From NCBI RefSeq assembly GCF_003957295.1, contig NZ_RQPJ01000005.1, positions 1 through 64,000 of the forward strand: 64,000 nucleotides of DNA, written 5' to 3'. Each line of letters opens with the position of its first letter. Within the stretch, counting starts at the first letter, position 1. Made by a program: the position numbers and the translations under genes. The notes beneath the pieces were generated by a model, which was not told the origin of the DNA, searched no databases, and saw only the letters and a program-made list of their open reading frames with translations. Below, one piece after another: positions 14,252 to 38,211 of this stretch. This DNA comes from Arenibacter aquaticus. Its GTDB lineage: Bacteria; Bacteroidota; Bacteroidia; Flavobacteriales; Flavobacteriaceae.

Positions 14252-14265
14252 ATTCGACCGACAAC
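14252..14265 (-). promoter_or_regulatory. Shared 14-bp locus motif, copy 1 (susC-1)
   Basis: GTTGTCGGTCGAAT in coding orientation, 97 bp upstream of the ATG. It is identical to the copy before susC-2, and close variants lie in the symporter/kinase divergent region and before the cytochrome operon. Probably a regulator site or an upstream promoter element. Confidence 0.55.
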
Positions 14266-14578
14266 CAAGCAGAAACAATCAATAACCTATTCTCACCTCA
14301 CAATGCATCCTTGTCCCCAAATAGCATTTTAGCTATTAAGTAAAAATCGTATAACAATAGGCATAAATAATATCTTAAAAACAAAGATTACTTAACAATT
14401 TGATTGTAAATCGTTAACTCTATAATCAAAGAATTAAAGTGAGAACATTTGAAACCGACTGAGTTTAAGTTCACAAAAAGTGATAAAATTTTGGAAAGAG
14501 CAACTAATAACCACTTCATTAATAGCTTTACAAACCGGATTTTACCAGTATCATAAATCATTAAGAAGAGGCTAATAT

Positions 14579-14613
14579 AAAAGTGCCTTGCACAGTTAAG
14601 ACAAGGCACTTTT
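14579..14613 (-). terminator. Terminator after the FG-GAP/UnbV gene
   Basis: AAAAGTGCCTTG pairs perfectly with CAAGGCACTTTT over 12 bp, with T runs on both sides. It is 87 bp past the stop at 14700 and separates that gene from susC-1. The rest of 14270-14700 is AT-rich with no supported gene. Confidence 0.85.
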
Positions 14614-14699
14614 ATTTGGAAGATAGATAATCTATGTAATATTTGAGGATTTCAACATAGTCAATTAACCCTGCACATCATTTGGATTGGCCACATGGA

Positions 14700-17600
14700 T
14701 TAAGGTAATTTCTCAAAGACTTGCAATTTATCGTTGTTGTTGGCTACCAGTATCCATTCTTTTTGGCCTACGGTGATAGACAAAAGACCTTTGGCATCCC
14801 TATTGGCAAATATGCCACTTTCACTTTGTTCTTTTGGGGTAAAGTTACCATTTCCGTCACCCATCAACAAAACACCAGTACCTGCATCATTTCTAGGAGT
14901 TTCTATCTCCGCAACAAACAAGTTTCCCACAACTAAAACATCCAGATAACCATCACCGTCAAAATCCTTGATCAACATATCATTAATACTGGATAATTGT
15001 GCCAAATTGGGAAGCGCACTGACCTTAAAATTTCCATTGCCCAAATTCTCTACGTAGGAAGAGGCAAAGGTATCGGTCTTATAATGCAGGGACCTATCCA
15101 AATTTTCCTTACCATAAACCTCGTCAATCTCCAAGGAGGCAAAAATATCATACTTCTGTATTTTGTCCTTCAACCCGGGGATCTGTTCTGAAGAACAGGA
15201 AAATCCCCTTAAAGGGTAGTGTTTCTCCCCATTGTAATAGCCCAGAACAATATCATAGTTGCCATTATTGTCAAAATCGTTAAAATAAATATCGAAAGGT
15301 TTTTTGGGAGAGGTCTTGTACTTATAATTAAGACCAATATTCCCCACTACAAAGTCCATATCCCCATCCTGATCAAAATCGCCTTGGCCTACACTGTACC
15401 ACCATCCTGCGGTAGCTTGCAAATCAGGGATAATTAGTTTCTTTAAAACCCCATTTTCGTTGTTAAAAATTGTTATGGGCATCCATTCTCCAACCACTAT
15501 TAGATCAAGGTCACCGTCACCATCATGGTCGCTCCAAATGCCATCGGTAACCATCCCAAGATCCTTAAACTCTGGGGCAACCTCCTTGGTTCTATTTACC
15601 AACTGCCCGTTTTCATTACTTAGAAACATACTCGTAGCCGGCAATGGGTAATGGTGCGGTACATGCCTGCCCATCACAACAAGATCCATATCACCGTCCA
15701 TATCATAATCTGCTGCCACAACACTGGAGCCACTGCTACGATCCATACCTAGAATAGCTCCTTTGGAAAAAGCTCCATCGCCGTCGTTTATATAAAGTCG
15801 GTCTATATAATGAGGGTCATTGACTTTAAATTCATTCCCGCCACTAACAACATAGATATCCTGAAACCCGTCTCCATTAACATCAACAAAGAGCGCGGCA
15901 ACGTCTTCATAAGCGGCATCTTTGTCCCAAATACCCCCTTCATTTTTTACAAAGCCCCCATTTTTATCCGCAATAAACAATGAAGCAGCAAATCCTGTGG
16001 CACCACCAATAAAAACATCTTCCAAGCCATCATTATTAATATCCCCCTTAGCCATCGCTGGACCAAACTGGGACATTTTATGAGGAAGCAGAACCTGATA
16101 CTTATAATCATCAAAAACATTCTCTTGGTGCTTAAAATAAATCCCTGCCTTATGGGTAATGTCATTATACAATGAAGACACCGTTAAATCATTGGTTGTA
16201 TTTGGTTGTATACCCTCTATCATATTGAGCGTCAACTGTTGACCGGTACTAATATTGCGTAAGTTTGTAACAGTATTATTGGGCCAGTGTACAATTATAC
16301 TATCCACCACCGATCTTTGTCCTACTCCAAAATGGAGAATAGGCTCACTGGTAGAATAGATACCACGCACATTGGTATGCTCCAAAAATTGCTGCTCCCC
16401 TTGGGTATACAAGGTTACCTTTGTTCCAAATACCGTACTGTTCCCTGAATCTGTTAAAGCTATGCGAAGGTAATTACCGTCCGCTATTTTCTCAGAATTG
16501 TTTCTATAAATAAAGGCTTTTTCGTTAATGTTGTTTACGATCAGATCCAAGTCCCCATCATTATCCAAATCTGCATAGGCAGATCCGTTGGAAAAAGACT
16601 TTTCTTTTAGCCCCCATTCATTCATTATTTTCTTAAAATTCAATCCACCTAGATTCTTATAGGCATAGTTCTGTAAGGGTTGGGACGGAAGCACCCCCAA
16701 AACCTTGTCTAGATCCAATATATCAAATACACTGGTTATATTGCCACCTTGGGGATTTTCCTGTAGGTACTTAAAGCTTGTCTCATTAATGAGCTTTCCA
16801 ACTTTTTTATCAGCGTCGGTATTCCTAATATCGTGTAATAGCCCATTAGTAATATAGGTATCCTTAAGTCCGTCATTATCAAAGTCCGCTATAAGATTGG
16901 ACCAGCTCCAATCTGTGGCCGCCATCCCCGTTAATTGGGCTACATCACTAAAAGTGCCATTGCCGTTGTTGCGCTGCAAGGCATTGTACATATATTGATA
17001 GTGGCCTCCTTCATTCACCACCTTCCAAAAGGCCTCGGGATTCATGCCACTCATATTGGATTTCAGACGAAAATTGTCCTCTGCCACCATATCCACAACA
17101 AAAATATCCAAAAGGGCATCGTTGTCTATATCGGCCACATCTACTCCCATACTATAATATGAGGTATGGTTAAGCGCCTTATCGGCCACATTGGTAAATG
17201 TACCATCCTGGTTATTTAAAAGCAGGAAGTCAGGGGCATTGAAGTCATTGGCCACATAGAGGTCCGTCCAACCATCGTTATTAAGATCGCTGGCCGAAAC
17301 GCCATTGGGAAAACCGGTCAACATTAGCCCGGCCTCTTCTGTGGTCTCCTCAAAGAACTCCTTACCGGTATTCCGATATAGCTTAACGTGGTACTCCTCC
17401 TTTAACAGTTCAGTACCTGAAAATTTGGAATAACTCCCAGGGTTTGGTGGCTGGGTCAACAAAAAAAGATCCAATAGGCCATCCTTATCGTAATCCAAAA
17501 AAGTAGCATGTCTAGTCCTTTGGGTATCGGCAACTCCGTACTGAGAGGCCGACTCTATAAATTTCCCGTTTCCGTCGTTAATATACAGCAGGTTGGTCCT

Positions 17601-18035
17601 CCATTGTGGCTTATCGTCATATAGCTCACGGCTTACATAAATATCCAAATTGCCATCATTGTTCACATCCGCAACAGTAACCCCGGTAGACCACCCTCCG
17701 TCATCTTGGATACCTGCGGAGCTGGTCATATCCTTGAACTTTAAATTGCCTTGGTTAAAATACAGTTTATCGGGAACCATATTACCGGCAAAATAAATAT
17801 CCTGAAGACCGTCATTATTAAAATCGCCCACCCCCACTCCTGCTCCTCCATAAAAATTGGAATACAGCAGTATATTGGCGTCCTTGGTATCTTTTATTTT
17901 GTTGTTAAAATGTATCCCCGTGTGTTTGCCATTCATCAACGTAAACCTTGAACTTTCTTGTGCTACTACAAGAAAACACCCCAAAAGATACACCCATATA
18001 AAAAGTATCACTCTACCTTTACTCATCACATCCAA
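14700..18035 (-). CDS. Exported FG-GAP/VCBS protein with ASPIC/UnbV domain
   Basis: A 1111-residue exported protein. The N terminus MDVMSKGRVILFIWVYLLGCFLVVAQ is cut as a signal peptide; Cys19 could instead be a lipid site. Many FG-GAP/VCBS repeats follow (GDFNNDGLQDIYFAGN, DVNNDGNLDIYVSREL, DINNDGLEDVFIGG, DYDMDGDMDLVVMG). An ASPIC/UnbV domain at about 515-600 includes HTNVRGIYSTSEPILHFGVG and VDSIIVHWPNN. More repeats fill the C terminus. Its position between the two SusCD units, in the same orientation, suggests a surface glycan-binding role, but such proteins are not biochemically defined. A second in-frame ATG three codons on could also be the start. Confidence 0.9.
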   Translation of the reverse strand: MDVMSKGRVILFIWVYLLGCFLVVAQESSRFTLMNGKHTGIHFNNKIKDTKDANILLYSNFYGGAGVGVGDFNNDGLQDIYFAGNMVPDKLYFNQGNLKFKDMTSSAGIQDDGGWSTGVTVADVNNDGNLDIYVSRELYDDKPQWRTNLLYINDGNGKFIESASQYGVADTQRTRHATFLDYDKDGLLDLFLLTQPPNPGSYSKFSGTELLKEEYHVKLYRNTGKEFFEETTEEAGLMLTGFPNGVSASDLNNDGWTDLYVANDFNAPDFLLLNNQDGTFTNVADKALNHTSYYSMGVDVADIDNDALLDIFVVDMVAEDNFRLKSNMSGMNPEAFWKVVNEGGHYQYMYNALQRNNGNGTFSDVAQLTGMAATDWSWSNLIADFDNDGLKDTYITNGLLHDIRNTDADKKVGKLINETSFKYLQENPQGGNITSVFDILDLDKVLGVLPSQPLQNYAYKNLGGLNFKKIMNEWGLKEKSFSNGSAYADLDNDGDLDLIVNNINEKAFIYRNNSEKIADGNYLRIALTDSGNSTVFGTKVTLYTQGEQQFLEHTNVRGIYSTSEPILHFGVGQRSVVDSIIVHWPNNTVTNLRNISTGQQLTLNMIEGIQPNTTNDLTVSSLYNDITHKAGIYFKHQENVFDDYKYQVLLPHKMSQFGPAMAKGDINNDGLEDVFIGGATGFAASLFIADKNGGFVKNEGGIWDKDAAYEDVAALFVDVNGDGFQDIYVVSGGNEFKVNDPHYIDRLYINDGDGAFSKGAILGMDRSSGSSVVAADYDMDGDMDLVVMGRHVPHHYPLPATSMFLSNENGQLVNRTKEVAPEFKDLGMVTDGIWSDHDGDGDLDLIVVGEWMPITIFNNENGVLKKLIIPDLQATAGWWYSVGQGDFDQDGDMDFVVGNIGLNYKYKTSPKKPFDIYFNDFDNNGNYDIVLGYYNGEKHYPLRGFSCSSEQIPGLKDKIQKYDIFASLEIDEVYGKENLDRSLHYKTDTFASSYVENLGNGNFKVSALPNLAQLSSINDMLIKDFDGDGYLDVLVVGNLFVAEIETPRNDAGTGVLLMGDGNGNFTPKEQSESGIFANRDAKGLLSITVGQKEWILVANNNDKLQVFEKLP

Positions 18036-18063
18036 TAAGATATAAATTAATTATTAAACCAAA

Positions 18064-18087
18064 GAAAGGAGGGTTTCCCCTCCTTTC
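18064..18087 (-). terminator. GC-rich hairpin after susD-2
   Basis: GAAAGGAGGG pairs with CCCTCCTTTC around a 4-nt loop. On the minus strand it is followed by TTTGGTTT, a weak T tract. It lies 48 bp past the susD-2 stop and 28 bp before the FG-GAP/UnbV gene. It may terminate fully or only partly, letting some transcription continue. Confidence 0.65.
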
Positions 18088-18134
18088 TCAATTTAAAACA
18101 TTACCAGTACATTTACAATTGTAATTGCAAAAGC

Positions 18135-19613
18135 TTATTCAGCATCCCACCAAACTCTCGTGGTAAGCAGGTCGGGTCCTTGTGCTGCGATAGCAGCTGC
18201 ATAATTTTCTGGATTGTTACTTTGTTCACTTTCAGAATAGGTTAGCCTTCTCGGAATTGTACCATTGGTAACATTACCAGGATAGTTGACCGGTACTAAA
18301 TTGGGGAAACCGGTTCTTCTCCAGTTGGAAAATGCCTCGTATTCATTTAAGAAAGTAGCTGCCCAATATTGGGTATTAATTTGTTCTATTGCATTAGCCG
18401 CATCGAAAGGGTTAGCCAACAAATAAGCATCTATATCATCATCAGCAATTACAGCATCTGGGCCGTATATCTCTAGCATTTTCATTGCTGCCCTTACACC
18501 TGCGTTGTAATGGGGTTCTGGATCGCCTCCAGCCAAATTCCATCTCACCGCAGCCTCTGCCAACATAAATTCAACTTCTGCATAGGTCTGAAAGAACATT
18601 GGAGCTTCAAAAAAAGTTATGATGTCACTAGGCTCTGCATAAAGATTAGTATCCTCCTCTCCGGTTGCTTCCAATAGCAACTCTGAATCCAATCCATTAG
18701 GCAAACCCTTCAAATCTGAAGGATCTGTACTGCCATCGCTTCTTCTTGAAGCCAATATGGGAAGCCTAGGATCTCCTTGCAAAAAGTCCACAAATGTTTT
18801 ACTCAAACGCTGATTCCCATCCGCATCAAAAGCCTCACTATTGCCATTACGGTTGTTGACATCGTGTTGAAGATAAAAAATATCGTCATTAGATTCCATA
18901 ACCCCACCATCAATGGCTTTGGTAACCCAAGCTTGTGCAGCTGTAGGATCTCTTTTGATTAAGCGAAAACCTAGTCTTAACATCAATGAATTGGCCAATT
19001 TTTTCCATTTGGTTTGATCTCCCTGATAAATTAAATCAGCGGCACCAAACTGCGATGTACCTGTTCCCAAAGCAGCCGCAGACTCTTCCAACTCTTTTAA
19101 TAGGTCTGGATATATCTCACTTTGTGAATCATACTTAGGTGTAAGTATTCCAGAAATAAAAGCTTTACCAGCCTCACTGTAAGGGATATCACCATACAGA
19201 TCAGTTAATCTGGAATACACATAAACCCTCATAATTCTAGTAATGGCCCTCATTTCCTCAGGAGCTTCCTCTTCTTCCAGTTGAACCATCATATCCTCTA
19301 AAGACTTTACTACATTTCCGTAGTACCTATCAATCAATGAAGAGGCATACCCCTTGTTCCAAGTGTATTTATCACCTGACCAATATCCTGCCGTTACCGC
19401 AAGATGCTGCATCATGGTTGATTGGTATATAAGGTTTGCGCGCCAGTTGTCATAACGCTCACTAGACATAAATTTTTGTGCTGCGGTCAGTTTTGTGGAA
19501 AGGCTAACCTGAACCGGTTTGGTTGGGTTAACATTTAATTCCTCAAAACCTTTATCGCATGCACCCAACAAGAATGCAATTAATAATATATAAATCGAAT
19601 TTTTCATAGTCAT
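18135..19613 (-). CDS. SusD/RagB family outer-membrane lipoprotein (pair 2)
   Basis: A surface glycan-binding lipoprotein of about 492 residues from ATG at 19613 (or 490 from ATG at 19607; both fall after the SusC stop). Lipobox FLLGAC then DKGFEELNVNPTKP, as in the SusD-like_2 group. Later features are LTDLYGDIPYSEAGKA, LIYQGDQTKWKKLANSLMLR and FSNWRRTGFPNLVPV. The start is 4 bp after the SusC-2 stop, so translation is likely coupled. It forms the lid of the SusC-2 importer. Confidence 0.93.
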   Translation of the reverse strand: MTMKNSIYILLIAFLLGACDKGFEELNVNPTKPVQVSLSTKLTAAQKFMSSERYDNWRANLIYQSTMMQHLAVTAGYWSGDKYTWNKGYASSLIDRYYGNVVKSLEDMMVQLEEEEAPEEMRAITRIMRVYVYSRLTDLYGDIPYSEAGKAFISGILTPKYDSQSEIYPDLLKELEESAAALGTGTSQFGAADLIYQGDQTKWKKLANSLMLRLGFRLIKRDPTAAQAWVTKAIDGGVMESNDDIFYLQHDVNNRNGNSEAFDADGNQRLSKTFVDFLQGDPRLPILASRRSDGSTDPSDLKGLPNGLDSELLLEATGEEDTNLYAEPSDIITFFEAPMFFQTYAEVEFMLAEAAVRWNLAGGDPEPHYNAGVRAAMKMLEIYGPDAVIADDDIDAYLLANPFDAANAIEQINTQYWAATFLNEYEAFSNWRRTGFPNLVPVNYPGNVTNGTIPRRLTYSESEQSNNPENYAAAIAAQGPDLLTTRVWWDAE

Positions 19614-19617
19614 TTTT

Positions 19618-22600
19618 TTAAAACTTAACACTTAAATTTAATCCAAAACTTCTAGAGGAAGGAACTCCAAAATACTCCAACCCCTGGGAATTTCCTACGT
19701 TATAAGCACTTTCTGGATCTATGTTATCTACACTTCTTTTTAAATAAAACAAATTGGAGGCAATAACCGAAATATTTACATTGGTCAAGAATATATTCTC
19801 CAATGATTTCTTGGGCAAGCTATACCCAAGACTCAATTGTCTAAATTTGATATAATCAGAATCTTCAACAAATTCTTCTGCTATATCGTTTATTTCTCCA
19901 TAATAGGTTTGCAAAAACTCCGGGGCTACCGTAGTAGTAAATGGTTGATTGGTATCAGCATCTATACCGGAAACAGTAAGGCCGTTTTCCCTACCTTCCA
20001 AAGTCGCTTTATGTAACCCATTCCCGTATACGGTCGTATTGGTACCAGAAAATATTTGACCTCCAAATTTACCGTCGATCAAGAAGTTTAAATTGAAGTT
20101 TTTATAGGAAAAGCTATTACTGAAACCTAAAGTTAAAGGAGGCACGCCTTCTCCCAAAATCTTTCTCTCTCCTTCAACAGCTACAGGAACTCCGTCTCCA
20201 TTTATGGTATATTTAATTACACCATTCTCATCCCTGTCATAAGAAACTCCAACTATAGTACCATATGCCTCACCAACAATATGTGTAATTCTAACATTAC
20301 GGGTACGTGGCTCATCCAAATTCACGTCGGCATTGGCAGCATTCGTAGCCAACACTTTTCCTTGATTATAAGCTCCGTTGATGCTAGTGGTCCAATTAAA
20401 ATTCTGAGTGCGTATAGGGCTGCCACTTAACAAGAATTCAACACCCTTGTTCTCTACTTTTCCAATATTGGCCTTAGCTCCTCCGTAACCAGAGAATACA
20501 GAAGTGGACACATCTACTATATCCTTGGTGGTTTCGTTTTCATAATATGCCATATCCAAGGAAAGCCTATTATTAAAAAACCTTGCATCCAATCCTATTT
20601 CCGCCTCAGTTTTACTAAATGGCACTAAATTGGAATTAGGTACGGTTCCTCCGTTAACCCGGCCTGTAGGTTGTCCTAAAAACCCCTGTCCAAAAATTTC
20701 ATATGTAAGTGCCAAGGCGTACGCGTCCTGTGCTCCACCAGCAACCTCAGAGTACCCACCTCTTAATTTCAAGAAGCTGATTGGCTCTGGCATGTCAAAT
20801 GCATCAGACAATATCAAACTCGCATTGACTGAAGGATAGAAATCGTTATTAGGGGTTGTTTTACCAGGAAAGGAAAGGGTAGAAAACCAGTCATTCCTAC
20901 CGGTAAAAGTAACATAGGCCCAACGGTCATAAGAAAGCTCCACTGACCCGTACAAGGATCCTATTTTTCTTTCGCTATAACTACGGCTTCTGTTTTGATT
21001 GGCCGTATTGGCAATATCTTCCAGGCCGGGAACAATAAAATCACTACCCCCTAAATTTAATTGTTCTTGTTTAATGTGGTTACTGTTTGCTCCAACAAAA
21101 GCTACAGTAGAAAACTTATCGGTGATATCCTTTTCAACACCTAAAATAACATCAGCATCTATTTGAGAATAACGAATTTCCGTTTCATTAATTCCTCCCA
21201 AGGGCTTATAGGCTGTGCCAAAAGGTTCTACTGCAGTTCGTTTAATGGTAGAATGATCTATACCCGTCCGCCCGGATAAGTATAACCAATCCGTAATATC
21301 ATAACGAAGAGAGGTAGAAGCAATTATCCTATTCTTGGTATCTTCATTTCTGAAGTTATATGCAGCAAAATATGGATTTTGCGAAAAAGTATTATTAGAG
21401 TACTGTCTTTCAGTTCCATCTGGATTTGTACCTGGCTCCATAAATCTTACATCAACGTTAGGAGGCAGATTGGCAACCGTAAAATTCCCGTTACCCGGGG
21501 CATCAGATAAACGTGGACGGTTCTGAACATCCTCATTGATATATTTTACATTTACTTGAGAAGTCAATTTCTCTCCTAAAACAGCACTGGAATTCAAAGA
21601 AAAAGTTTTTCTGTTCAAACCTGCATTGGGCATTACATCCTCATTGGTAAGGTCGGAAGCTGAAAATCTATAGCTCATCTTTTCTGAACCACTTGTAAGC
21701 GCCACAGTATTAATAAATGTTGTTCCCGTTCTGTAAAAATGGTCCAAATTACTTCCTACATAAGAATATGGTCTTTCTACACCGTCCCACTGCACAACCG
21801 AAGAGCCATCCAATTTTGCCCCCCAGGAACTGGTTCCCAAATCCAGAGCCTCAGACTGATTGACAGGTTTTCTACCTCTTGTTCCCTGTCCGTACTCTTT
21901 TTGAAAATCTTGCAAGGAAGTATCCACAGTGTCAAAGGTTACCGAGCTACTAAGCTCTACACCAAAGCCTTCCTGGCCTTTTCCTGATTTAGTAGTAACA
22001 AGTATAACCCCACCGGCAGCACGAGAACCATACAACGCGGAAGCAGCACCACCCTTCAGGACACTAACAGATTCAATATCGTCAGGGTTAAGACTGGAAA
22101 TGCCATCACCACCATCCGAACCGCCCCATAGGCCAGCTGAACCATTATTTTCATTACCGATCGGGATTCCATCGACAATATACAATGGCTGATTATCCCC
22201 GGACAGAGAACTGGCCCCACGTATAATAACCCTACTGGAACCTGCCGCACCTGTAGCATTTTGGGTTATGTTAACCCCAGCAACCTTTCCTTGTAGAGCA
22301 TTAATAGCATTGGTCTGTTTTACGGTAGACAATTCCTCTCCCCCTACCTCAGTCAGGGAATATCCCAGAGCCTTGGTTTCTTTTTTAATACCCAAAGCGG
22401 TCACAACAACTTCACCAAGTTGTTCTGCATCCTCTTCCAATCCTACATTGATCACCGATTGACCATTTATAGCAACCTCTTTGGAAGAAAATCCCAAAGA
22501 CGAAAAGGTTAAAACACCATTTTTACTGGATACATTTATGGAATAATTACCATCAAAATCCGTAGAGGTACCGTTTACTGTTCCTTTTTCTACGACATTG

Positions 22601-22725
22601 ACGCCAGGTAGCGGATCACCCAAATCATCAGTGACCGTTCCGGTTACAACTATGTTCTGGGCCGTAATTCCCTGCATGCAGAAAATAACCAAGAACATTA
22701 AATAATAATGAACTTTTTTAATCAT
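19618..22725 (-). CDS. SusC/RagA family TonB-linked outer-membrane transporter (pair 2)
   Basis: A 1035-residue importer with signal peptide (...GITAQ), carboxypeptidase-regulatory-like domain (VTGTVTDDLGDPLPGVNVVE), EQLGEVVVTALGIKKE, plug motif GASSLSGDNQPLYIVDGI, and a barrel ending SSRSFGLNLSVKF. No STN domain. The leader (about 115 bp) and N terminus are clearly paralogous to pair 1. The gene starts a separate unit from the glycosidases: a strong terminator lies 400 bp upstream and its own conserved leader precedes it. Confidence 0.95.
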   Translation of the reverse strand: MIKKVHYYLMFLVIFCMQGITAQNIVVTGTVTDDLGDPLPGVNVVEKGTVNGTSTDFDGNYSINVSSKNGVLTFSSLGFSSKEVAINGQSVINVGLEEDAEQLGEVVVTALGIKKETKALGYSLTEVGGEELSTVKQTNAINALQGKVAGVNITQNATGAAGSSRVIIRGASSLSGDNQPLYIVDGIPIGNENNGSAGLWGGSDGGDGISSLNPDDIESVSVLKGGAASALYGSRAAGGVILVTTKSGKGQEGFGVELSSSVTFDTVDTSLQDFQKEYGQGTRGRKPVNQSEALDLGTSSWGAKLDGSSVVQWDGVERPYSYVGSNLDHFYRTGTTFINTVALTSGSEKMSYRFSASDLTNEDVMPNAGLNRKTFSLNSSAVLGEKLTSQVNVKYINEDVQNRPRLSDAPGNGNFTVANLPPNVDVRFMEPGTNPDGTERQYSNNTFSQNPYFAAYNFRNEDTKNRIIASTSLRYDITDWLYLSGRTGIDHSTIKRTAVEPFGTAYKPLGGINETEIRYSQIDADVILGVEKDITDKFSTVAFVGANSNHIKQEQLNLGGSDFIVPGLEDIANTANQNRSRSYSERKIGSLYGSVELSYDRWAYVTFTGRNDWFSTLSFPGKTTPNNDFYPSVNASLILSDAFDMPEPISFLKLRGGYSEVAGGAQDAYALALTYEIFGQGFLGQPTGRVNGGTVPNSNLVPFSKTEAEIGLDARFFNNRLSLDMAYYENETTKDIVDVSTSVFSGYGGAKANIGKVENKGVEFLLSGSPIRTQNFNWTTSINGAYNQGKVLATNAANADVNLDEPRTRNVRITHIVGEAYGTIVGVSYDRDENGVIKYTINGDGVPVAVEGERKILGEGVPPLTLGFSNSFSYKNFNLNFLIDGKFGGQIFSGTNTTVYGNGLHKATLEGRENGLTVSGIDADTNQPFTTTVAPEFLQTYYGEINDIAEEFVEDSDYIKFRQLSLGYSLPKKSLENIFLTNVNISVIASNLFYLKRSVDNIDPESAYNVGNSQGLEYFGVPSSRSFGLNLSVKF

Positions 22726-22774: not shown

Positions 22775-22825
22775 AATGTTAATTGTTTATTAAATTTTCT
22801 ATTTATCAGTCAAATGCCAAAATAT

Positions 22826-22839
22826 ATTCGACCGACAAC
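22826..22839 (-). promoter_or_regulatory. Shared 14-bp locus motif, copy 2 (susC-2)
   Basis: GTTGTCGGTCGAAT in coding orientation, 100 bp upstream of the ATG and identical to the susC-1 copy. The rest of 22840-23130 is AT-rich without a supported gene. Confidence 0.55.
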
Positions 22840-23130
22840 AACCAATTACCCACAAATAACGGAATTAAAGACAATTCCAACCAAATAAAACAAACAAAAT
22901 ATCACCAATTTTAGCATAAAAAACATCTAACTGGGTCCAAAAAGTACTAATATATTTTGATTTAATTTATGTTTTAATTAACAATTCAACAACTAAATAT
23001 AGAACTGATTATAAAGTAATGATACTGCTTTATTGGTAATAAACACGATTTAACAATATTTCGGTTATAAAGGTTAATTATCAATCAAAATTTTCTTATA
23101 AATTGGTAGTTGGAAAAATTTGAAATCCTC

Positions 23131-29326: not shown

Positions 29327-29493
29327 TATTTCTTTCGTTTCCATATTCTTAAATAAAAGTGGAGCTATTAGCTTAAGTTTTGCCCCCCTCTACTCTATTA
29401 ACAATTATATAATTACCTTATTTTAAAGGCACCAAACACCCTACCTTAACACCACATGACTGGCTATTATTCTGCATACTTTCTAGCTTACAG

Positions 29494-31818
29494 CTATTCT
29501 ACGACCACCTCATCTATAAACATCCAAGAACCGCCACCTGTAGGGGGCGTACCCAAATTTCTTGCAATAACCTTGACATATCTGGCCGATTGCTGCCCAA
29601 TTTCCAGGACGAAATCTTTTAATTCCGAGCTACTATTTACCGCATAGGGCCTATTTATGGCTCCTACACTCTTATAGGTATTTCCGTCATCTGATAAGAA
29701 TACCTCCACACCAACTGGGAAATATATCCCTGACCCTTGGTTTTCCAAAGACCCGATAGTTACTGTTTTGATCTCCGTTGGGTTTTCCAGATCAATGATC
29801 AATTCCATATCATCTCCCAACCATCCTTGCCACTGACCGTCATGAAAATTTTTGGATCCCCGCATTACATTTACCATTCCCAGATCCTTGGCACCTTGGT
29901 AGCTATCGTGATACCTATTAATATAGGTCACCGGTTTTCCTGCAGCCTTGTGGTAGGTAATTGTTTTTTCAAACAGGTCGCCAATAGGCTCGCCTTCTTT
30001 GAACACCTGTGCTTTGATAGTTGTGGTCTTATCAATAGTTAAGGGAGAGCTGTATTGTTCAGATGTCGCAGTTAAGGGGCTTCCATCCAAGGTAAAGCGT
30101 ATATCGGAATCTGGAAATTCTGATTCCAGCACCAAGGAAATAGCTCCACTTTCCAAAACAGTAGCCTCCATTGAGACTTGATAAACACTTTTTGCATAGT
30201 TGATTCCCAATACATTGTATCGTTCAAACAAACTGCTAACCCTTCTTGAAAAATCTAACCATTCCTTATCTTCCTTTTCACTCCATACAGCTTCTGCCAA
30301 GGCCGCTAATCTCGGATAGGTCATGTATTGTGCCTGTGCTTCGGTAGGCACATATTCTGTCCATAAGTTGGCTTGGCCTCCCAAGACATGCTTGGCTTGC
30401 TCAGGGGTCATTTCTTCTACTACCGGATCAAACTTATAGACCTTGCTAAGAGGTAGGTTGCCACCCCAGGCCAATGGCTCCAAATTCTGATCACCTTGGT
30501 AGTAATCAAAATAACAATGTGAAGTAGGCGACATTACCACGTCGTGGCCTGCCTCGGAGGCCTCTAGGCCACCTTTTACGCCCCGCCAACTCATAACCGT
30601 TGCCCCTGGTGCCAGACCGCCTTCCAAAATTTCATCCCAACCAATCAGGGTCCTTCCCTTGGAACTAACGAAGCGTTCCATGCGTTTTATAAAATAACTC
30701 TGCAATTCCTCCACATTGGCCAAACCTTCATCACGCACTCTTTTTTTACAGTCCGCACACACTTTCCAATTTGTTTTGGTTGCCTCATCGCCCCCAATAT
30801 GAATGTACTGGGATGGAAACAGCTCCATTACTTCCAGCAAAACATTTTCCAAAAACGCAAAGGTAGATTCCTTTCCTGGGCAATATATTTCGGTAATAGG
30901 CCATACACCTCCCGAGGGCACCATAATTTGATGTTGAAAACAGGACAATTCCGGATAGGCTGCAATGGCGCTCATAACGTGGGCGGGCATCTCTATTTCC
31001 GGAACAACATTAACTCCCTTACTACTGGCATAGGCCACTATTTCTTTAATATCTTCCTGGGTATAAAAGCCTCCCAAAGTAGCCTTGGTCCCCAATTCTG
31101 GTGTTGGACGCGCATTCCATGGTTTTTCTTCCTGGTCTACCCTAAAGCCCCCCACTTGGGTCAATTTGGGGTATTTTTTTATTTCTATACGCCAGCCCTG
31201 ATCATCTACCAAGTGTAAATGCAGCGTATTCATTTTCAATAAAGCAAGCTGATCTATGGTGGCCATAATATAATCTTTGCCAAAAAAATGTCTGGAAACA
31301 TCCATCATAAATCCACGCCATTTAAACCGAGGCGCATCGGAGACATCAACATTGGGAATAACCCAATCCACAGCATCCACAAGGGTATTACTTTCTATGG
31401 ATACCGGAAGTAATTGCCTCACTGTCTCCAGTCCGTACAAAAATCCAGAATACCCCTTGGCCTTTATAGTTACCTTCTCCCTGGACACCTCAAGTACATA
31501 AGCCTCTTCCTTCAGGGAAGTGTCAACAACTAATTCAACAAAGTTATTAGCTGGGGCAGCGGTTACTACTTCCAATTCCCAATTTGCCGACCGATTAAAT
31601 TTCTCTCTCAAAAAATTAACTACCTCAGCATACTTCCCGTCCACCACGAATTTGGTATCCGGGGTAAACTCAAAAGCCCCTTGATTTAACTTTAGATCAT
31701 TAGGTTGGGGAACAATATGTATGTCCTCCTGAGAAAAAACCGTCTTACTTTTCTCTGTACAGCCAAACGCAACAAAAAGCAAGAACAATAACACACTACC
31801 AACAACAGCCTTATTCAT
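29494..31818 (-). CDS. GH20 beta-N-acetylhexosaminidase with C-terminal discoidin-like module
   Basis: A 774-residue lipoprotein (lipobox FVAFGC, Cys20). An N-terminal GH20b domain (32-155) precedes the GH20 barrel: MMDVSRHFF, LHLHLVDDQGWRIEIK and the catalytic pair Asp344-Glu345 in HIGGDEATKTNWK. A chitobiase/hexosaminidase C-terminal beta domain (IRFTLDGSPLTATSEQY) follows, then an F5/8-type module ending SWMFIDEVVVE. It removes terminal beta-GlcNAc or GalNAc by substrate-assisted catalysis, probably at the cell surface. In this PUL the likely job is trimming N-glycan antennae. Confidence 0.95.
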   Translation of the reverse strand: MNKAVVGSVLLFLLFVAFGCTEKSKTVFSQEDIHIVPQPNDLKLNQGAFEFTPDTKFVVDGKYAEVVNFLREKFNRSANWELEVVTAAPANNFVELVVDTSLKEEAYVLEVSREKVTIKAKGYSGFLYGLETVRQLLPVSIESNTLVDAVDWVIPNVDVSDAPRFKWRGFMMDVSRHFFGKDYIMATIDQLALLKMNTLHLHLVDDQGWRIEIKKYPKLTQVGGFRVDQEEKPWNARPTPELGTKATLGGFYTQEDIKEIVAYASSKGVNVVPEIEMPAHVMSAIAAYPELSCFQHQIMVPSGGVWPITEIYCPGKESTFAFLENVLLEVMELFPSQYIHIGGDEATKTNWKVCADCKKRVRDEGLANVEELQSYFIKRMERFVSSKGRTLIGWDEILEGGLAPGATVMSWRGVKGGLEASEAGHDVVMSPTSHCYFDYYQGDQNLEPLAWGGNLPLSKVYKFDPVVEEMTPEQAKHVLGGQANLWTEYVPTEAQAQYMTYPRLAALAEAVWSEKEDKEWLDFSRRVSSLFERYNVLGINYAKSVYQVSMEATVLESGAISLVLESEFPDSDIRFTLDGSPLTATSEQYSSPLTIDKTTTIKAQVFKEGEPIGDLFEKTITYHKAAGKPVTYINRYHDSYQGAKDLGMVNVMRGSKNFHDGQWQGWLGDDMELIIDLENPTEIKTVTIGSLENQGSGIYFPVGVEVFLSDDGNTYKSVGAINRPYAVNSSSELKDFVLEIGQQSARYVKVIARNLGTPPTGGGSWMFIDEVVVE

Positions 31819-31874: not shown

Positions 31875-32948
31875 TCAGTTCTTTACGTCCAAAGTTTTAA
31901 ACTTACCATCCTCGGTTATCACCAATGTTTTTCCCGTAAACGGACTTTTTACCGAAATGGTCCAACCAAAACTACTTTGTTCATACACCGCTTTCACAGT
32001 CTGGCCCAGAATTACCTTGGGTTGGGACACCTGTCCTACCGCACCTTCCCTTACATGCAAAATACCTCTGTAAAGGGAATACATATGCCATTTTATATGG
32101 TCGTCCTTTGGAATCGAAAAATTAGCATTACCCCCTGCCTCTTCCGAAGAAAAATACACATAGCCCCAATGCTCGGGTTCGTGCATATTAATTACTCCTT
32201 GTGGCGACCATACCCAGTTGTATTCGGGCATAAACTTCCCTTTTTCATCTTTTTTTCTGGAATAGCGCCCTTCCTTTAGATCAAAATCCCAGTTTACCCT
32301 AGAGAAATTAATTCGCCAAAATTGATTCTCCGGGACGCCTCCGCCAGAACTGGCTTCGGTAATAACCTTCCAAGGAAGGGCAATCTCCACCGTCCAGCCT
32401 TTGTCCAAATCCGATGAATTATTCAAAGTTCCATCTATATGTACTGCCGATTTCACCCCTTGTATGTCCCAACTATCTATTACCTTGCCATGGTTCCTGT
32501 AAGGCTTGGTCAAAAACAAATCCCATAGCGTATTGTGGGCATTCATCTCATACTCGTAGTAATTATGGGTATCCCCATCAGGGTCTATAAAAATTTCAAA
32601 ATCGTTGTTGTAAAAGATCACTGTATCCCTTTGCTTTAAGGTTGCCCACACATGCGGCTCCTCCATTTCTGCCAACACATACAAATAATCCTCGTCCCAC
32701 AACATTTTCATTCTGGTCCTATAAGTTGGCGTCTTCACCCCTTCTATATCAATATAATCCTGTGACCAAGGTGCCTTCTTCCATGCCGATTCATCACTCT
32801 TTCCATCTATAACCAAGGCATCATTGGCCTTGTAGGCTATATAATCCCTTGGCACTTTATCTTGGGCTTCCAGGGCATGAATACCCAATTGCATTAGAAA
32901 AATTACTAAAGCACATTTTACTGCTCTATTAAAATATCTGTGTTCCAT
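31875..32948 (-). CDS. Carbohydrate-binding family 9-like protein
   Basis: About 357 residues from the ATG giving MEHRYFNRAVKCALVIF; an upstream ATG at 32990 would add 14 residues ahead of the signal peptide. After the cleavage region (...HALEAQ) comes a CBM9-like/DOMON beta-sandwich: DALVIDGKSDESAWKKAPW, TRMKMLWDEDYLYVLAEMEEP, FEIFIDPDGDTHNYYEYEMN and GWTVEIALPWKVI. No catalytic residues are recognised. Proteins of this kind are frequent in PULs and probably bind glycan in the periplasm or at the surface. It lies between GH130 and GH20 in the operon. Confidence 0.85.
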   Translation of the reverse strand: MEHRYFNRAVKCALVIFLMQLGIHALEAQDKVPRDYIAYKANDALVIDGKSDESAWKKAPWSQDYIDIEGVKTPTYRTRMKMLWDEDYLYVLAEMEEPHVWATLKQRDTVIFYNNDFEIFIDPDGDTHNYYEYEMNAHNTLWDLFLTKPYRNHGKVIDSWDIQGVKSAVHIDGTLNNSSDLDKGWTVEIALPWKVITEASSGGGVPENQFWRINFSRVNWDFDLKEGRYSRKKDEKGKFMPEYNWVWSPQGVINMHEPEHWGYVYFSSEEAGGNANFSIPKDDHIKWHMYSLYRGILHVREGAVGQVSQPKVILGQTVKAVYEQSSFGWTISVKSPFTGKTLVITEDGKFKTLDVKN

Positions 32949-33001
32949 ATGATGTATTTTATTGATTATATGCGGTAACAACCAAACCAAAGGACTAGCC
33001 C

Positions 33002-33967
33002 CTATAGACTATTTTCTTTGGTAAATTTCACTATTTCTGAAATACGACCAAAGGCCAAACCGGTCACTGTGTCTGCGGCACCGTAGTATATGGCAACCTT
33101 ATCCTCTTCTATAGAATGTAAAGCAGCACACGGAAAAACCACATTTGGCACATCGCCTACACACTCGTAATTGGTTTGTGGAGACAATAAATATGGTTTT
33201 GTTCTGTACAATACCTGATCTGGACGATCCTTGTCCAATATGGCGGCACCCATGGAATACCTAAATCCGTTGCAGGTATTTATAACACCGTGGTAGAAGG
33301 TCAACCACCCTTCATCCGTAAGGATCGGTATAGGGCCAGCCCCAATCTTGGTACACTGCCATGCACTGTCTACAAAGGGGGTAACTTTCATCACACATCT
33401 GTGTTCTCCCCAATACTTCATATCAGGGCTATAACTTATATAAATATCCCCAAAAGGCGTATGCCCGTTATCACTTGGTCTACTTAACATGGCGTATTTA
33501 CCATCTATTTTTTCTGGAAATAACACCCCATTTCTATTGAAGGGCAGAAAGGCATTTTCGCATTGAAAAAACTCCTTAAAGTCAAATGTATAACCAATTC
33601 CAATAGTAGGACCATGATACCCATTGCACCATGTAATCCAATATCTATCCTCTATAAATACCACACGGGGATCATACTTATAGTCCGATTCTATCATATT
33701 GGTATTCCCCTCACCAAATACTATTGGCTCATGGTTAATATCCCAATTGATACCATCCTTGCTAAAACCTGCAAAAATATTCATTTGCACGGCCTTGTTA
33801 TCACAACGGAACACCCCGGCAAATCCGTCCTCAAAGGGAACCACCGCACTATTAAAGATACTATTGGAAGAGGGTATTGCATCTCTCTCAACCACTGGAT
33901 TTTCCGAATACCGCCATACTACATCTGCACAATCAGCAGGCCTTTCTTGCCATGGAATACTATTCAC
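33002..33967 (-). CDS. GH130 beta-mannoside phosphorylase, probably Man-beta-1,4-GlcNAc phosphorylase
   Basis: A 321-residue cytoplasmic enzyme without signal peptide. A five-bladed propeller family is shown by [41 protein letters not shown] (DPR motif), [18 protein letters not shown] and [12 protein letters not shown]. The N terminus [20 protein letters not shown] resembles the GH130_2 group that includes Bacteroides mannosyl-GlcNAc phosphorylase. It would split the N-glycan core disaccharide with phosphate to give mannose-1-phosphate and GlcNAc. The GH20/GH92/GH29 context supports this over mannan use. Activity on Man-Glc or mannobiose cannot be excluded. Confidence 0.88.
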
Positions 33968-34131: not shown

Positions 34132-36009
34132 TTAATTGGGTATTTTCCTAACTTTATCCAACCATGTGAATTTAAGAATAGCCGATGTAAGAACAAACAC
34201 CGCCAAAGCAATTAATGCCTTTGGATAGTCACGGATCATAAAATATATAGGCAGTACAATCATACTGGACTGCCACACAATTCCAACCACACAGTTCATC
34301 ATATCCCACCAAAATTCATTGTTCTTTTGAAAGCTGGGGTCTTCAGCCTTTAAATCCTTATATATTGGATTCCACCATCCCCATGGCCTTACATTTTTAT
34401 AGAATGATTTTAAAATTTCCCTATCTGTAGGGGCACTTAAATAGGTCCCCAAAAACGACCCCAATAAAGAAACCCCAAAAATTATAGGAAATAGGTATAT
34501 AGCATGGATATGGGAAAGATTGTACAAAATACTATCCTCTATAAAATTGCCCTTATTCTGATCCAGTACAAATTGCAAGGAAGCAATGACCAAACCGGAG
34601 AGCATGCCCCAAAAATAACCCCAGCCGTTAAATCGCCACCATATCCATTTTAGAAAATTAGCAGCCACATAACCTCCAAACAGGGCACTGGTAATCCAAA
34701 GGGTAAGTGAGTTAATAGAATCTGCAAAGAACCCCATGAATACCCCTAAAAACACCACGACAAAAGAAGCGATATGACTGGCCTTAATATAATGTTTATG
34801 GGAGGCCTCGGGCTTAAAATATTTTTTATAAATATCATTGACCAGATATGCGGGACCGGCATTGACAAAGGCTGAAAAGGTAGACATAAAGGCCGCCAAC
34901 AAACCAGCCAACAACAACCCCTTTATTCCCACGGGAACGTGAAAATTGATCACTTTGGGCAAAATAACTTCCATATCCCCACCTGTTAAGGAGGTATCTG
35001 AAACCATACCGGGCGTCAGTACTACAAGGGCTATTACCACAATACCTGTAATAAGCAGATAACGTGGTATAAACAACACCAAATTGGTAAATCCGCTCAT
35101 ATATGCAGCTTCCTTAACGGTCTTGGTAGATAAAATTCGCTGAAGATCATAACTTGGCGTTGGCCCGGCAATACTTGCAAAAAAGCCTTTGAAAAGGGTC
35201 ATCCCTATCAAGGCCCCGAACATTTTATACCCTTCAGAATCTATCAAATCATTAAAGGCCTGAAATTCCCGGTCCCAATGGGTACCCAATTCCCAGCCAA
35301 AAAATACATTCTTCCATTCGGCACTTATTACCGAATTTATTTCCACATCGGTAAAGGCAAAAAAGGCGTAACCGGCAACAAGGATTCCGGCGATAACCAT
35401 AATAATATATTGTAATACCTCCGTAGCCACTACAGAGAACATCCCTCCCTTTACCGTATAAATAGTAGTGAGGAAAATAATGATCACGGCATAGGTCTGC
35501 TCTGAGGTCAACAAAAGCATGTCTCCCAAATGAACAGCTAAATCCCATGGTAAAATTATAGTTAAGAACTTACCTACCCCTTCAAAGAAATAAGCAATAA
35601 ACCCAACGGCAGCTACAATGGCAAATACGGCAACTATACTATGCGAGGCCCTTCCGGCCCTATCATCCCCAAAACGGGTTAATATCCACTCCGAACCTGT
35701 CATAATGTTAGACCTCCTAATCCAGACGGCCAAAAACATCATGACAAAAATTTGATTCCATATTGGCCATAGCCACATGAACATAAAGCTTTTTACGCCA
35801 TAAAGGAATAAAATCCCTACCATCCAGGCGGTTCCGGAAACATCAAACATTCCCGAGCCATTACTGAGCCCCAAATAATACCATTTAATATTATTCCCTC
35901 CCAAGAAATACGACTTAAGGCCCTTTGAGGCTTTTTTTGAAACCCATATACCCACAAAGAGCGTAAGTACTACATAAACAATAATTATCGATATATCAAT
36001 TACATTCAT
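34132..36009 (-). CDS. Sodium:solute symporter (SSS family)
   Basis: A 625-residue inner-membrane protein with about 14 hydrophobic segments. SSS features include the N-terminal ISKKASKGLKSYFLGGNN region, GLSNGSGMFDVSGTAWM, and GLLLAGLLAAFMSTFSAFVNAGPAYLVND, the conserved segment of the sodium-site helix. It is the first gene of the glycosidase operon and precedes GH130 by 164 bp, so it probably takes up a released monosaccharide or the Man-GlcNAc disaccharide feeding GH130. The substrate is inferred only. It diverges from the LytS-type kinase gene across a 318-bp spacer. Confidence 0.93.
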   Translation of the reverse strand: MNVIDISIIIVYVVLTLFVGIWVSKKASKGLKSYFLGGNNIKWYYLGLSNGSGMFDVSGTAWMVGILFLYGVKSFMFMWLWPIWNQIFVMMFLAVWIRRSNIMTGSEWILTRFGDDRAGRASHSIVAVFAIVAAVGFIAYFFEGVGKFLTIILPWDLAVHLGDMLLLTSEQTYAVIIIFLTTIYTVKGGMFSVVATEVLQYIIMVIAGILVAGYAFFAFTDVEINSVISAEWKNVFFGWELGTHWDREFQAFNDLIDSEGYKMFGALIGMTLFKGFFASIAGPTPSYDLQRILSTKTVKEAAYMSGFTNLVLFIPRYLLITGIVVIALVVLTPGMVSDTSLTGGDMEVILPKVINFHVPVGIKGLLLAGLLAAFMSTFSAFVNAGPAYLVNDIYKKYFKPEASHKHYIKASHIASFVVVFLGVFMGFFADSINSLTLWITSALFGGYVAANFLKWIWWRFNGWGYFWGMLSGLVIASLQFVLDQNKGNFIEDSILYNLSHIHAIYLFPIIFGVSLLGSFLGTYLSAPTDREILKSFYKNVRPWGWWNPIYKDLKAEDPSFQKNNEFWWDMMNCVVGIVWQSSMIVLPIYFMIRDYPKALIALAVFVLTSAILKFTWLDKVRKIPN

Positions 36010-36327
36010 TAAACTCCTGTTTTAAGGGTTATTAAATAGTATATTCACCAGCTATCTTTGAAGTGCCAAAAGTTAAAAAGAAGGTATTATGCCATGTTTT
36101 TTCTTAGCAAAAGACAACTACTCTATTTTTTTTTATAAATTCCCCAAATTTTCATGGTGGGGTTGGCCGCAATCATATTTTTACACGAAAAATTACAAGT
36201 GTTTGCGGCTTTCAGAATTAAATATTTGATTTTTTTCAGGGAAGGAGAATAAATTTAGACCAACAACCAAACCGTAAAGCCAAACGCCTTTATTTGGAAA
36301 CAACCACACCGTGAACTAAGCATTCAA
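36010..36327. promoter_or_regulatory. Divergent promoter region, symporter operon / kinase-regulator
   Basis: A 318-bp spacer between divergent starts. It holds the shared motif copy at 36254-36267 and AT-rich tracts. No coding frame. No clear TTTG-N19-TAnnTTTG promoter is visible on either strand. Confidence 0.5.
36254..36267 (-). promoter_or_regulatory. Shared 14-bp locus motif, copy 3 (symporter/kinase spacer)
   Basis: GTTGTTGGTCTAAA on the minus strand. It matches the susC copies at 11 of 14 positions, and the next bases outward (ACAACCAA on plus) match copy 1 too. It is 244 bp upstream of the symporter ATG in the same relative orientation, and 60 bp upstream of the kinase in reverse. 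Confidence 0.45.
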
Positions 36328-37404
36328 ATGAATATGGGGTATCAAAATATATTGGGTAAGAAGAGCTATGGAGAATTCAGCATTAATTACCGACACCATA
36401 TAGTTTTTTGGTTGGTTTATATACTTTTCAACATTTTTAGATGGGGCAACGTACACCATGACTTTGTGTATTCACTAAAAACCAACTTATTGGGATTCCC
36501 CATCCATATGGCCCTAGCCTACCTCAATATTTATTTTTTAATGCCCAGGTTTGTATATACAAAAAAATATTTGACCTACACCCTGTTACTGCTGGCGTCC
36601 TTATACATAGGTCTGCTTATAAAATTTAATCTGACCTATTACCTTGTAAGTACCAATGTAATGCCAGAGTGGGGAGGCACCGAAAGCCTAACCCTAAATT
36701 ACGCTATTGTAACCATGTTAGGGGAACTGTACGTTATGTCTTTTGTAACAGCTATAAAAATCACGGTAGATTGGCTCAACGAAAGTCGCAAGCTGCACGA
36801 GGTGGAAAAAAGACAACTGACCACAGAATTAAAATTCCTAAGATCCCAAGTCTCCCCACATTTTTTCTTCAACACCCTGAACAACATCTATTCACTAACC
36901 CTGGAAAAATCGGACAGGGCCCCACAGATTGTACTGCGGTTATCAGAATTAATGCGTTATTTATTATATTCAACAGATAAGCCTTATCAGGACCTAACCA
37001 AGGAAATTGAATGCATTCAGAACTACATCGATTTGGAACGTATCAGGTTCGATAAATCCTTAAATATAGACATGAACGTGTCTGGAGAGGTAGAGGGCAA
37101 GGGAATAGCCCCAATGCTCCTTATTCCATTTGTTGAAAATTGCTTCAAACATGGGGCCAATAAAAGTATTGGCGAAGTACAGATAAAAATTAATCTAGAA
37201 GTTGTAGACAATATCTTAAAATTTGAAGTCAGCAATAACATTCCCCAAAACACAAAGGAAAATATAATGCCTACCACTGAAGGGGGCATAGGACTTACAA
37301 ATGTAAAAAAGCGATTGGAAATAGGCTACGAACCCAATGACTACGACCTATCTATATTTGAAGAAGATGAAATGTTTAATGTTATTCTGAAATTAAAAGT
37401 GTAA
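36328..37404 (+). CDS. LytS/YehU-type sensor histidine kinase
   Basis: A 358-residue inner-membrane kinase. Four N-terminal hydrophobic segments (about 25-40, 52-72, 82-108, 122-145) are followed by a His_kinase domain with phospho-acceptor His178 in LRSQVSPHFFFNTLNN, N box FVENCFKHG (Asn271) and GGIGLTNVKKRL. There is no large periplasmic sensor, so the signal is probably sensed in or near the membrane. The stop TAA overlaps the regulator's ATG by one base, giving a coupled pair. It diverges from the symporter operon, which makes PUL control plausible but unproven. Confidence 0.93.
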   Translation: MNMGYQNILGKKSYGEFSINYRHHIVFWLVYILFNIFRWGNVHHDFVYSLKTNLLGFPIHMALAYLNIYFLMPRFVYTKKYLTYTLLLLASLYIGLLIKFNLTYYLVSTNVMPEWGGTESLTLNYAIVTMLGELYVMSFVTAIKITVDWLNESRKLHEVEKRQLTTELKFLRSQVSPHFFFNTLNNIYSLTLEKSDRAPQIVLRLSELMRYLLYSTDKPYQDLTKEIECIQNYIDLERIRFDKSLNIDMNVSGEVEGKGIAPMLLIPFVENCFKHGANKSIGEVQIKINLEVVDNILKFEVSNNIPQNTKENIMPTTEGGIGLTNVKKRLEIGYEPNDYDLSIFEEDEMFNVILKLKV

Positions 37405-38120
37405 TGAGTATGAAGGCCATATTAATAGATGATGAACCACTAGCAATCAATGTACTAAAAAATTATATTGACCAAATCAAGGAATTACAACTAATACAAA
37501 CCTTTACCAATGCCATTGACGCCTCTACTTTTTTACAGAGAAATGAGGTAGATATTATTTTCTTGGACATTAATATGCCCATAATGAACGGATTGGACCT
37601 TCTAGGTGCCTTAAATTCCAAGGCTATGGTTGTTATGACTACAGCCCATGAAGAATATGCCTTAAAGAGTTATGAGTTGGAGGCCATAGATTATTTAGTA
37701 AAACCTATTCCGTTTCCCAGATTTCTAAAAACCATACATCGCATTATAAAACTCCGGGAAGGACTCCCCAATAGCAATACCCAGACCAAAAGTGAAAATC
37801 CAAGTATTTTCATAAAGATAGACAAGAAAAAACTGCAGAAAATTTATTTGGACGACATCATTGTCATAGAGAGCTTAAAAGATTATATCCGCATTAAGAC
37901 CAAATCCAACAAATTTATAATACATAAGACATTAAGTAGTTTTACCGATGAACTTCCTTCGGACAAATTCATTAGAATACATAGATCCTACACTGTGGCC
38001 ATAGACAAAATTGAAGCCGTTGAGGGGAACAGTCTTGAAGTTCAAGGGATACGATACACTATAGGCAGAAGTTACCTGAATGAGGTCAAGGGAAAAATAT
38101 TAAATGAAGATTCGGAATAA
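37404..38120 (+). CDS. LytTR family response regulator
   Basis: A 238-residue regulator. A receiver domain with acidic pocket Asp9-Asp10 and phospho-Asp55 in IIFLDINMPIMNG, and Lys in DYLVKPIPF, is followed by a LytTR DNA-binding domain (about 130-235; IFIKIDKKKLQKIYLDDI, DKFIRIHRSYTVAIDKI). LytTR proteins bind promoters to activate transcription. Four copies of a 14-bp motif upstream of the PUL and cytochrome units are candidate targets. The flanking cytochrome operon starts 152 bp downstream on the same strand. Confidence 0.93.
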   Translation: MSMKAILIDDEPLAINVLKNYIDQIKELQLIQTFTNAIDASTFLQRNEVDIIFLDINMPIMNGLDLLGALNSKAMVVMTTAHEEYALKSYELEAIDYLVKPIPFPRFLKTIHRIIKLREGLPNSNTQTKSENPSIFIKIDKKKLQKIYLDDIIVIESLKDYIRIKTKSNKFIIHKTLSSFTDELPSDKFIRIHRSYTVAIDKIEAVEGNSLEVQGIRYTIGRSYLNEVKGKILNEDSE

Positions 38121-38197
38121 TAGATTTCGCTTTATCCGACGTATTTTATCAAATAACAATTAAGATTAGTACTATTCTCATTTAGCTTTTCTTATAT

Positions 38198-38211
38198 GTT
38201 GTTAGTCGAAA
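38198..38211 (+). promoter_or_regulatory. Shared 14-bp locus motif, copy 4 (cytochrome operon)
   Basis: GTTGTTAGTCGAAA in coding orientation, 61 bp upstream of the first operon gene. It matches the susC copies at 11 of 14 positions and has the same orientation to its gene. The sequence TAAATATTTG ~20 bp downstream could be the matching -7 region. Confidence 0.45.

Follow-up and report, generated by a model that had tools for sequence, protein, structure and literature searches.

A putative LytTR operator links a predicted N-glycan utilisation locus with a PSCyt/DUF1501 operon in Arenibacter aquaticus

We analysed a 64,000-nucleotide stretch of the Arenibacter aquaticus genome (assembly GCF_003957295.1, contig NZ_RQPJ01000005.1, positions 1 to 64,000; hereafter, the window), in which a glycan utilisation locus and an operon for PSCyt/DUF1501 proteins, located beside genes for a LytTR two-component system, share a 14-bp motif upstream of their units. 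Quite probably, an N-glycan utilisation regulon, of which the PSCyt/DUF1501 operon is a part, is activated by the LytTR two-component system, the motif being a half-site of the putative LytTR operator. In the proposed scheme, the kinase encoded at 36328..37404 would phosphorylate the regulator encoded at 37404-38120, a dimer of which would seat on two direct half-sites 21 bp apart, that is, about two helical turns, and occupancy of the operator upstream of each promoter would activate transcription. The predicted regulon consists of a symporter operon, two SusCD units, the PSCyt/DUF1501 operon and, on another contig, a gene for an alpha/beta-hydrolase-like protein of 859 amino acids. Activation is suggested because the sites lie upstream of the genes in fixed orientation; what we infer are the binding itself, activation over repression, where the operons begin and end, and the nature of signal and substrate.

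Architecture of the site

Matches to GTTGTYRGTCKAAW number exactly four in the window, at 14252-14265 (-), 22826-22839 (-), 36254-36267 (-) and 38198-38211 (+), against an expectation of 0.01 from dinucleotide shuffles, a post hoc figure in that the consensus was built from the sites themselves. The two susC copies are identical across the 14 bp, and the distances from motif to next same-strand start codon are 97 bp (susC1), 100 bp (susC2), 244 bp (symporter) and 61 bp (PSCyt gene). An earlier note on this DNA had listed the same four copies, 61-244 bp upstream of and in the same orientation to the next gene, and the exact-match search and the measured distances agree with it. The motif itself is present as described there, but it belongs to a longer element of which it forms only the downstream part: two direct half-sites with the core RTTNRK, 21 bp apart, make up a bipartite site; the 14-mer corresponds to the promoter-proximal half (B). 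The four sites of the window are as follows (E-values from the 28-site profile described below).

36249..36290, minus strand: bipartite site before the symporter operon; half-site A GTTTGG (36285-36280), half-site B GTTGGT (36264-36259); E 2.5e-8
38175..38216, plus strand: bipartite site before the PSCyt gene; half-site A ATTTAG (38180-38185), half-site B GTTAGT (38201-38206); E 5.9e-7
14247..14288, minus strand: bipartite site before susC1; half-site A ATTGAT (14283-14278, weak), half-site B GTCGGT (14262-14257); E 2.3e-4
22821..22862, minus strand: bipartite site before susC2; half-site A ATTTGT (22857-22852, weak), half-site B GTCGGT (22836-22831); E 0.006

The copy in the spacer between symporter and kinase genes (36254), which the earlier note had connected with the two-component system, is present but reads into the symporter operon, so that the kinase and LytTR genes are linked to it by position. 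A profile search of the window found no site reading into these two genes, nor any further position above noise beyond the four sites (next best E 0.15).

The profile was built from 28 sites aligned without gaps over 42 columns (alignment A1) and drawn from 44 sites; the remaining 16 comprise 12 near-duplicates and four atypical sites (L049, L057, the CBM9 site of L062, and L083 of G023), inclusion of which would have made half-site A appear less clean. Two intergenic matches, L073 (G018) and L084 (G033), were removed from the site lists before counting. With weighting by orthologue group, a second RTTNRK core lies 21 bp upstream in 3.46 of six groups and in at most 1.5 at every other offset from 8 to 45, the CBM9 and PSCyt groups being represented by one site each. 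Similarly, 460-bp stretches were taken around the start of the kinase gene from loci with an orthologue of the regulator; 28 of the 43 have the core pair at 21 bp, and the next best offset between 12 and 33 is found in 17. The symporter, PSCyt and hydrolase sites each have a clear half-site A.

Genomic specificity, conservation and co-occurrence with the regulator

The whole assembly (5,233,924 bases) contains five exact matches to GTTGTYRGTCKAAW, only one of them beyond the window's four; this fifth match (C20:51065) is intergenic and lies 63 bp ahead of the gene for the 859-residue protein. Allowing one mismatch yields nine extra matches, seven of which fall within open reading frames (ORFs). 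When searched against the 5.23 Mb genome, the 28-site profile recovered five sites, with E-values of 2.5e-8, 3.7e-7, 5.9e-7, 2.3e-4 and 0.006, and noise starting from 0.9. Five of the 28 profile rows are this genome's own sites, and two control searches were therefore made. A profile from the symporter and PSCyt sites of relatives only (16 sites) recovered the symporter site (E 5e-11), the hydrolase site (1.4e-4), which was wholly unseen by that profile, and the PSCyt site (1.8e-4), with the next hit at 0.5. In the second control, this genome (G000) and each orthologue group were excluded in turn; the five G000 sites ranked 1, 4, 4, 5 and 2 (susC1 4, susC2 5) over the 165,838 positions of the window and region L015, other own sites being counted in. 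Dozens of equally good hits in unrelated positions, which the earlier note regarded as fatal to its claim, did not appear: five sites stand clear of noise.

Exact matches are found in 31 of 60 genomes, our own included, and number 54, five of them own; the surroundings were examined for 44 of the 49 others (40 regions; G038, G043, G048, G050 and G056 were left out). Those in genomes without an orthologue of the regulator are mostly within ORFs and were treated as background. Seventeen other genomes of the genus hold 31 matches, 25 of which precede orthologues or homologues of the regulon genes, at distances of mostly 241-249 bp for the symporter, 62-63 bp for the hydrolase-like gene and 77-100 bp for susC, with a CBM9 gene also represented. 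One further match (L072) is within a symporter spacer, and is not among the 25 because its next gene extends past the stretch. In an alignment of 14 symporter spacers, the site is present in 12; L119 is without it, whereas L116 is incomplete, its site having been found in the later profile search. Behind the regulator gene, a search permitting several spacings detected a 21-bp pair in 12 relatives, starting with CATTTAGC in nine and finishing with CATTTGTCG in 11; in one of the 12 (L090, G010), no PSCyt gene comes next. The regulator has an orthologue at 71-85% identity in 16 of the 17 other genus genomes, the exception being G004. At profile E 0.05, each of these 16 genomes, from which many profile rows derive, bears 2-6 sites, and G004 none. 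As a separate observation, the match at G007:C14:126966 (L057, L191) precedes a gene for a 331-residue protein that matches none of the window genes, and its upstream bases form an inverted repeat (ATTGGTT...AACCAAT).

Across 397 genomes of the family, scores of the regulator fall into two groups, at least 276 bits (64 genomes, 52-100% identity) versus at most 246; 40 genomes have only the lower-scoring paralogue group and 293 have neither at E 1e-62. At E 0.02, sites are present in 50 of 62 genomes with an orthologue (the 64 minus G000 and G010), in eight of 40 with a paralogue only and in four of the 58 searched genomes with neither (2/18 and 2/40, G004 being among the 18); both family site searches used stricter filters, which lose weak matches. 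Without G036, the source of one profile row, the first figure becomes 49 of 61. The corresponding Fisher p-values, uncorrected for kinship, are ~1e-9 (versus paralogue only) and ~2e-17 (versus neither), and the 50 genomes represent roughly 38 genera besides Arenibacter. The 62 genomes hold 103 sites, of which 78 are no more than 60 kb from the regulator gene and 39 no more than 3 kb; 34 of the 50 site-bearing genomes have a site at the shorter distance. Of these 39 sites, the 30 on the 5′ side all face away from the regulator gene, mostly ~1.1 kb off, at the kinase spacer, and the nine on the 3′ side have mixed orientations.

A comparison of named loci, restricted to the best 80 of a longer list, covers 43 loci with an orthologue and 37 with more distant regulators. 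Nine of the 43 are from Arenibacter (regulator at 74-83% identity) and probably overlap with the same-genus genomes. The kinase spacer region contains a profile match (E 0.1) in 30 of the 43, three of which cover half-site B only; a PF06580 kinase lies beside the regulator in all 43, and a GH92, symporter, CBM9 or susC gene diverges from the kinase gene in 42. The 37 other loci yielded one weak profile match. As a side observation, the paralogous kinase-LytTR pairs of L124, L125 and L127 diverge from susC-susD genes. A different 21-bp repeat (GTGTNGTCTATAT-like), seen by eye in their kinase/susC spacers, is unsupported by shuffling: the best score was reached in 27 (L125), 12 (L128), 192 (L124) and 296 (L127) of 300 shuffles, and the best stretches are AT-rich and not the repeat seen.

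Probable identity of the binder and competing explanations

LytTR regulators recognise a pair of 9-11-nt repeats with 11-13 nt between them and have no common consensus (PMC4847170). The present site agrees with this range, 21 bp from start to start amounting to 9-nt half-sites with a 12-nt gap, where the 9-nt length is a reading of the core. The spacing by itself cannot tell a LytTR binder from an AraC-type hybrid one, because tandem sites of hybrid two-component systems (HTCS) are also predicted to average 21 bp apart (PMC3878776). The LytTR regulator is singled out as the probable binder because the sites co-occur with, and lie close to, its gene, which adjoins that of a PF06580 kinase. The dedicated regulon proposed in the earlier note, with the product of 37404-38120 as first candidate binder, gains support from the sites at orthologous genes, the 21-bp repeat and the co-occurrence across the family. 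Coincidence was rejected on the strength of conservation ahead of orthologous genes together with that co-occurrence. A general susC element was rejected as well: the genome contains 96 Plug-domain matches, and only two are preceded by a site.

Several results weigh against a LytTR regulon of this extent. The profile from symporter and PSCyt sites fails to recover the two susC sites genome-wide, and within the window alone places them at ranks 3 (E 0.054) and 8 (E 0.73); half-site A is weak at both, ranking on its own 1665 (susC1) and 4054 (susC2). These two sites are the weakest part of the regulon case; the susC2 gene of G003 (94% identical) bears a fuller bipartite site. Five of the 31 genus matches do not precede regulon genes, three being inside ORFs (L047, L061, L066) and two before other genes (L049, L057). 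No site was found at E 0.02 in 12 of the 62 orthologue genomes (G261, G325, G382, G159, G280, G350, G428, G277, G283, G030, G433, G193). In the set of 60 genomes at E 0.05, G036 (orthologue at 58%) has five sites and G030 (52%) none, whereas genomes without an orthologue do carry some: G023 (48%) three, G025 two and five others one each. The 21-bp repeat in the window's own spacer is not significant by shuffling (75/300, best offset 29), although repeat statistics on single spacers, this one included, were uninformative. Finally, six Gelidibacter spacers lacking a profile match hold a conserved block, GTTCAG-N15-GTCCGTCTAA. In these loci (L277, L282, L283, L287, L288, L303), an apparently diverged operator (GTTCAG-N15-GTCCGT) accompanies a regulator at 52-54% identity, and co-evolution of the two is possible.

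A different binder might serve the same regulon, for example a hybrid two-component system of AraC type, or some other factor encoded elsewhere in the genome. The predicted operators of Bacteroides hybrid systems, direct repeats of similar spacing, speak for it, as do the two hybrid systems encoded at loci activated by alpha-mannan (PMC3878776); the regulators proposed for Bacteroides SusCD loci are SusR-like proteins, hybrid two-component systems and pairs of extracytoplasmic function (ECF) sigma and anti-sigma factors (PMC3878776). We nevertheless consider this improbable: the sites track and adjoin the LytTR regulator across many genera, and the 37 loci with distant regulators provided a single weak match. 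Moreover, the 41 ORFs of the window scanned with Pfam (out of 65 of at least 100 amino acids, the other 24 overlapping scanned ones) include no match to a hybrid system, AraC, ECF sigma factor or SusR-like protein, a search that did not extend to the genome elsewhere.

It is very unlikely that the motif belongs to the core promoter, as the earlier note had suggested for its TTG as a -33 box. The TTG is there, upstream of start codons and in the right orientation. However, the Bacteroidota promoter consensus TAnnTTTG, tested with -33/-7 spacing, occurs among 35 sites at no consistent offset (at most two exact occurrences at any offset, or eight with one mismatch). The one-mismatch peak at +14 leaves too little room for a -33/-7 pair, the columns between +21 and +31, in which a -7 box should fall, carry little information, and the motif is accompanied by a conserved second half-site and absent ahead of nearly all Plug genes. 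Least credible of all is that the likeness was merely inherited from duplicated upstream regions of susC paralogues without a shared regulatory role. The identity of the two susC copies across 14 bp, both ahead of SusC paralogues, speaks for such descent, but sites are found ahead of unrelated genes too (symporter, PSCyt, hydrolase), and orthologous spacers share them.

The LytTR system favoured here resembles YpdA/YpdB of Escherichia coli, which likewise combines a LytS-type kinase with a receiver-LytTR regulator; BtsS/BtsR (YehU/YehT) is a further LytTR response-regulator system of that species. It differs from the E. coli systems in half-site sequence and in its putative targets, SusCD glycan units and the PSCyt/DUF1501 operon, and the regulator stays below the NCBIfam cut-off for BtsR (PRK11697; 126.2 versus 246 bits). 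In streptococcal LytTR Regulatory Systems, a membrane protein acts as inhibitor. Those systems also use LytTR direct repeats, mostly 12 bp apart, but pair the LytTR protein with the membrane protein instead of a kinase and activate their own operon (PMC6193735). The HTCS_Man regulons of Bacteroides thetaiotaomicron are similar in that alpha-mannan/N-glycan loci have predicted direct-repeat operators (PMC3878776), but their regulators are single-chain hybrids with AraC domains, whereas kinase and LytTR regulator are separate proteins here. LytTR systems and glycan-locus regulons are each already known; among the titles and abstract openings listed, with subscription papers and preprints outside the scope, none reported control of a SusCD glycan locus by a LytTR regulator.

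Genes of the locus and content of the regulon

The genes concerned, as assigned with Pfam, are listed below.

36328..37404, plus strand: sensor histidine kinase, PF06580
37404..38120, plus strand: response regulator with LytTR DNA-binding domain, proposed binder
38273..45417, plus strand: PSCyt1/PSCyt2/PSD1 protein, DUF1501 protein, PSCyt1+DUF2231 protein and two Sulf_transp genes
34132..36009, minus strand: sodium:solute symporter, first gene of the enzyme operon
33002-33967, minus strand: GH130
31875-32990, minus strand: CBM9-like protein
29494-31818, minus strand: GH20
27086-29344, minus strand: GH92
24824-27064, minus strand: DUF4838
23322-24812, minus strand: GH29
14700..22725, minus strand: unit of susC2, susD2 and an FG-GAP/ASPIC protein
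8890..14154, minus strand: susC1-susD1 unit

The kinase and regulator genes diverge from the symporter gene, and the PSCyt operon is next after the regulator. Judging from strand and short gaps, the symporter and the GH130, CBM9, GH20, GH92, DUF4838 and GH29 genes probably form one operon, and the locus would comprise four units with one site ahead of each first gene. SusCD pairs are found together with GH92, GH20, GH29 and GH130, as in an N-glycan polysaccharide utilisation locus, and these enzymes suggest that the substrate is an N-glycan or a related glycan of mannose/GlcNAc/fucose type. The fifth-site gene (L015:9143-11722, G000 C20) encodes a protein in which the alpha/beta-hydrolase signal is weak and residues 319-434 are esterase-like (best PDB match LC-Est1C), and lies near Peptidase_S10, GH20 and GDSL lipase genes.

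A similar content emerges from 20 chosen regions around sites and regulator genes in 17 of the 62 genomes, where all 37 sites, counted by hand, are intergenic. Genes for susC or GH92/SSF/GH130/CBM9 follow 28 of them: 17 lie before GH92/SSF/CBM9 genes and 11 before susC. Of the others, one is before a PSCyt gene, two before other genes, five before genes for proteins of 536-654 amino acids (two of them glucosamine-isomerase/PIG-L proteins by Pfam) and one before a GMC oxidoreductase gene followed by Gluconate_2-dh3. The last case, in G204 (L232), involves a GMC oxidoreductase (17678-19396) and Gluconate_2-dh3 (16961-17671) behind a weaker site (17.4 bits), possibly a redox member of the regulon in another genus. 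An Asparaginase_2 protein in one site-bearing cluster (L233) would fit cleavage of the glycan-asparagine link. In G023, from another genus and with a regulator at 48%, sites precede PSCyt (58 bp), GH92-SSF-GH130-CBM9 (68 bp) and hydrolase (124 bp) genes, with a further weak one before susC (E 0.034).

Sites ahead of PSCyt genes occur in Arenibacter, Cellulophaga, G072 and G023, and among the best 80 loci a PSCyt gene with its own site directly follows the regulator in seven of nine named Arenibacter and both Cellulophaga loci. Tentatively, the regulon may include a dedicated redox arm, in which an oxidative step on N-glycans would deliver electrons to the PSCyt cytochrome/DUF1501 proteins; if so, DUF1549, DUF1553 and DUF1501, of unknown function in Pfam, would gain a place in a pathway. 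Should the regulon be as proposed, common control of the PSCyt/DUF1501 proteins with N-glycan enzymes would provide a lead to their role, and a classical kinase paired with a LytTR regulator, acting at a defined operator, would represent another route of SusCD locus control, with a site model from which regulon members can be predicted in sequence data. At the border of the glycan locus, the window encodes a phage-type integrase with Arm and SAM-like domains (4659-5903).

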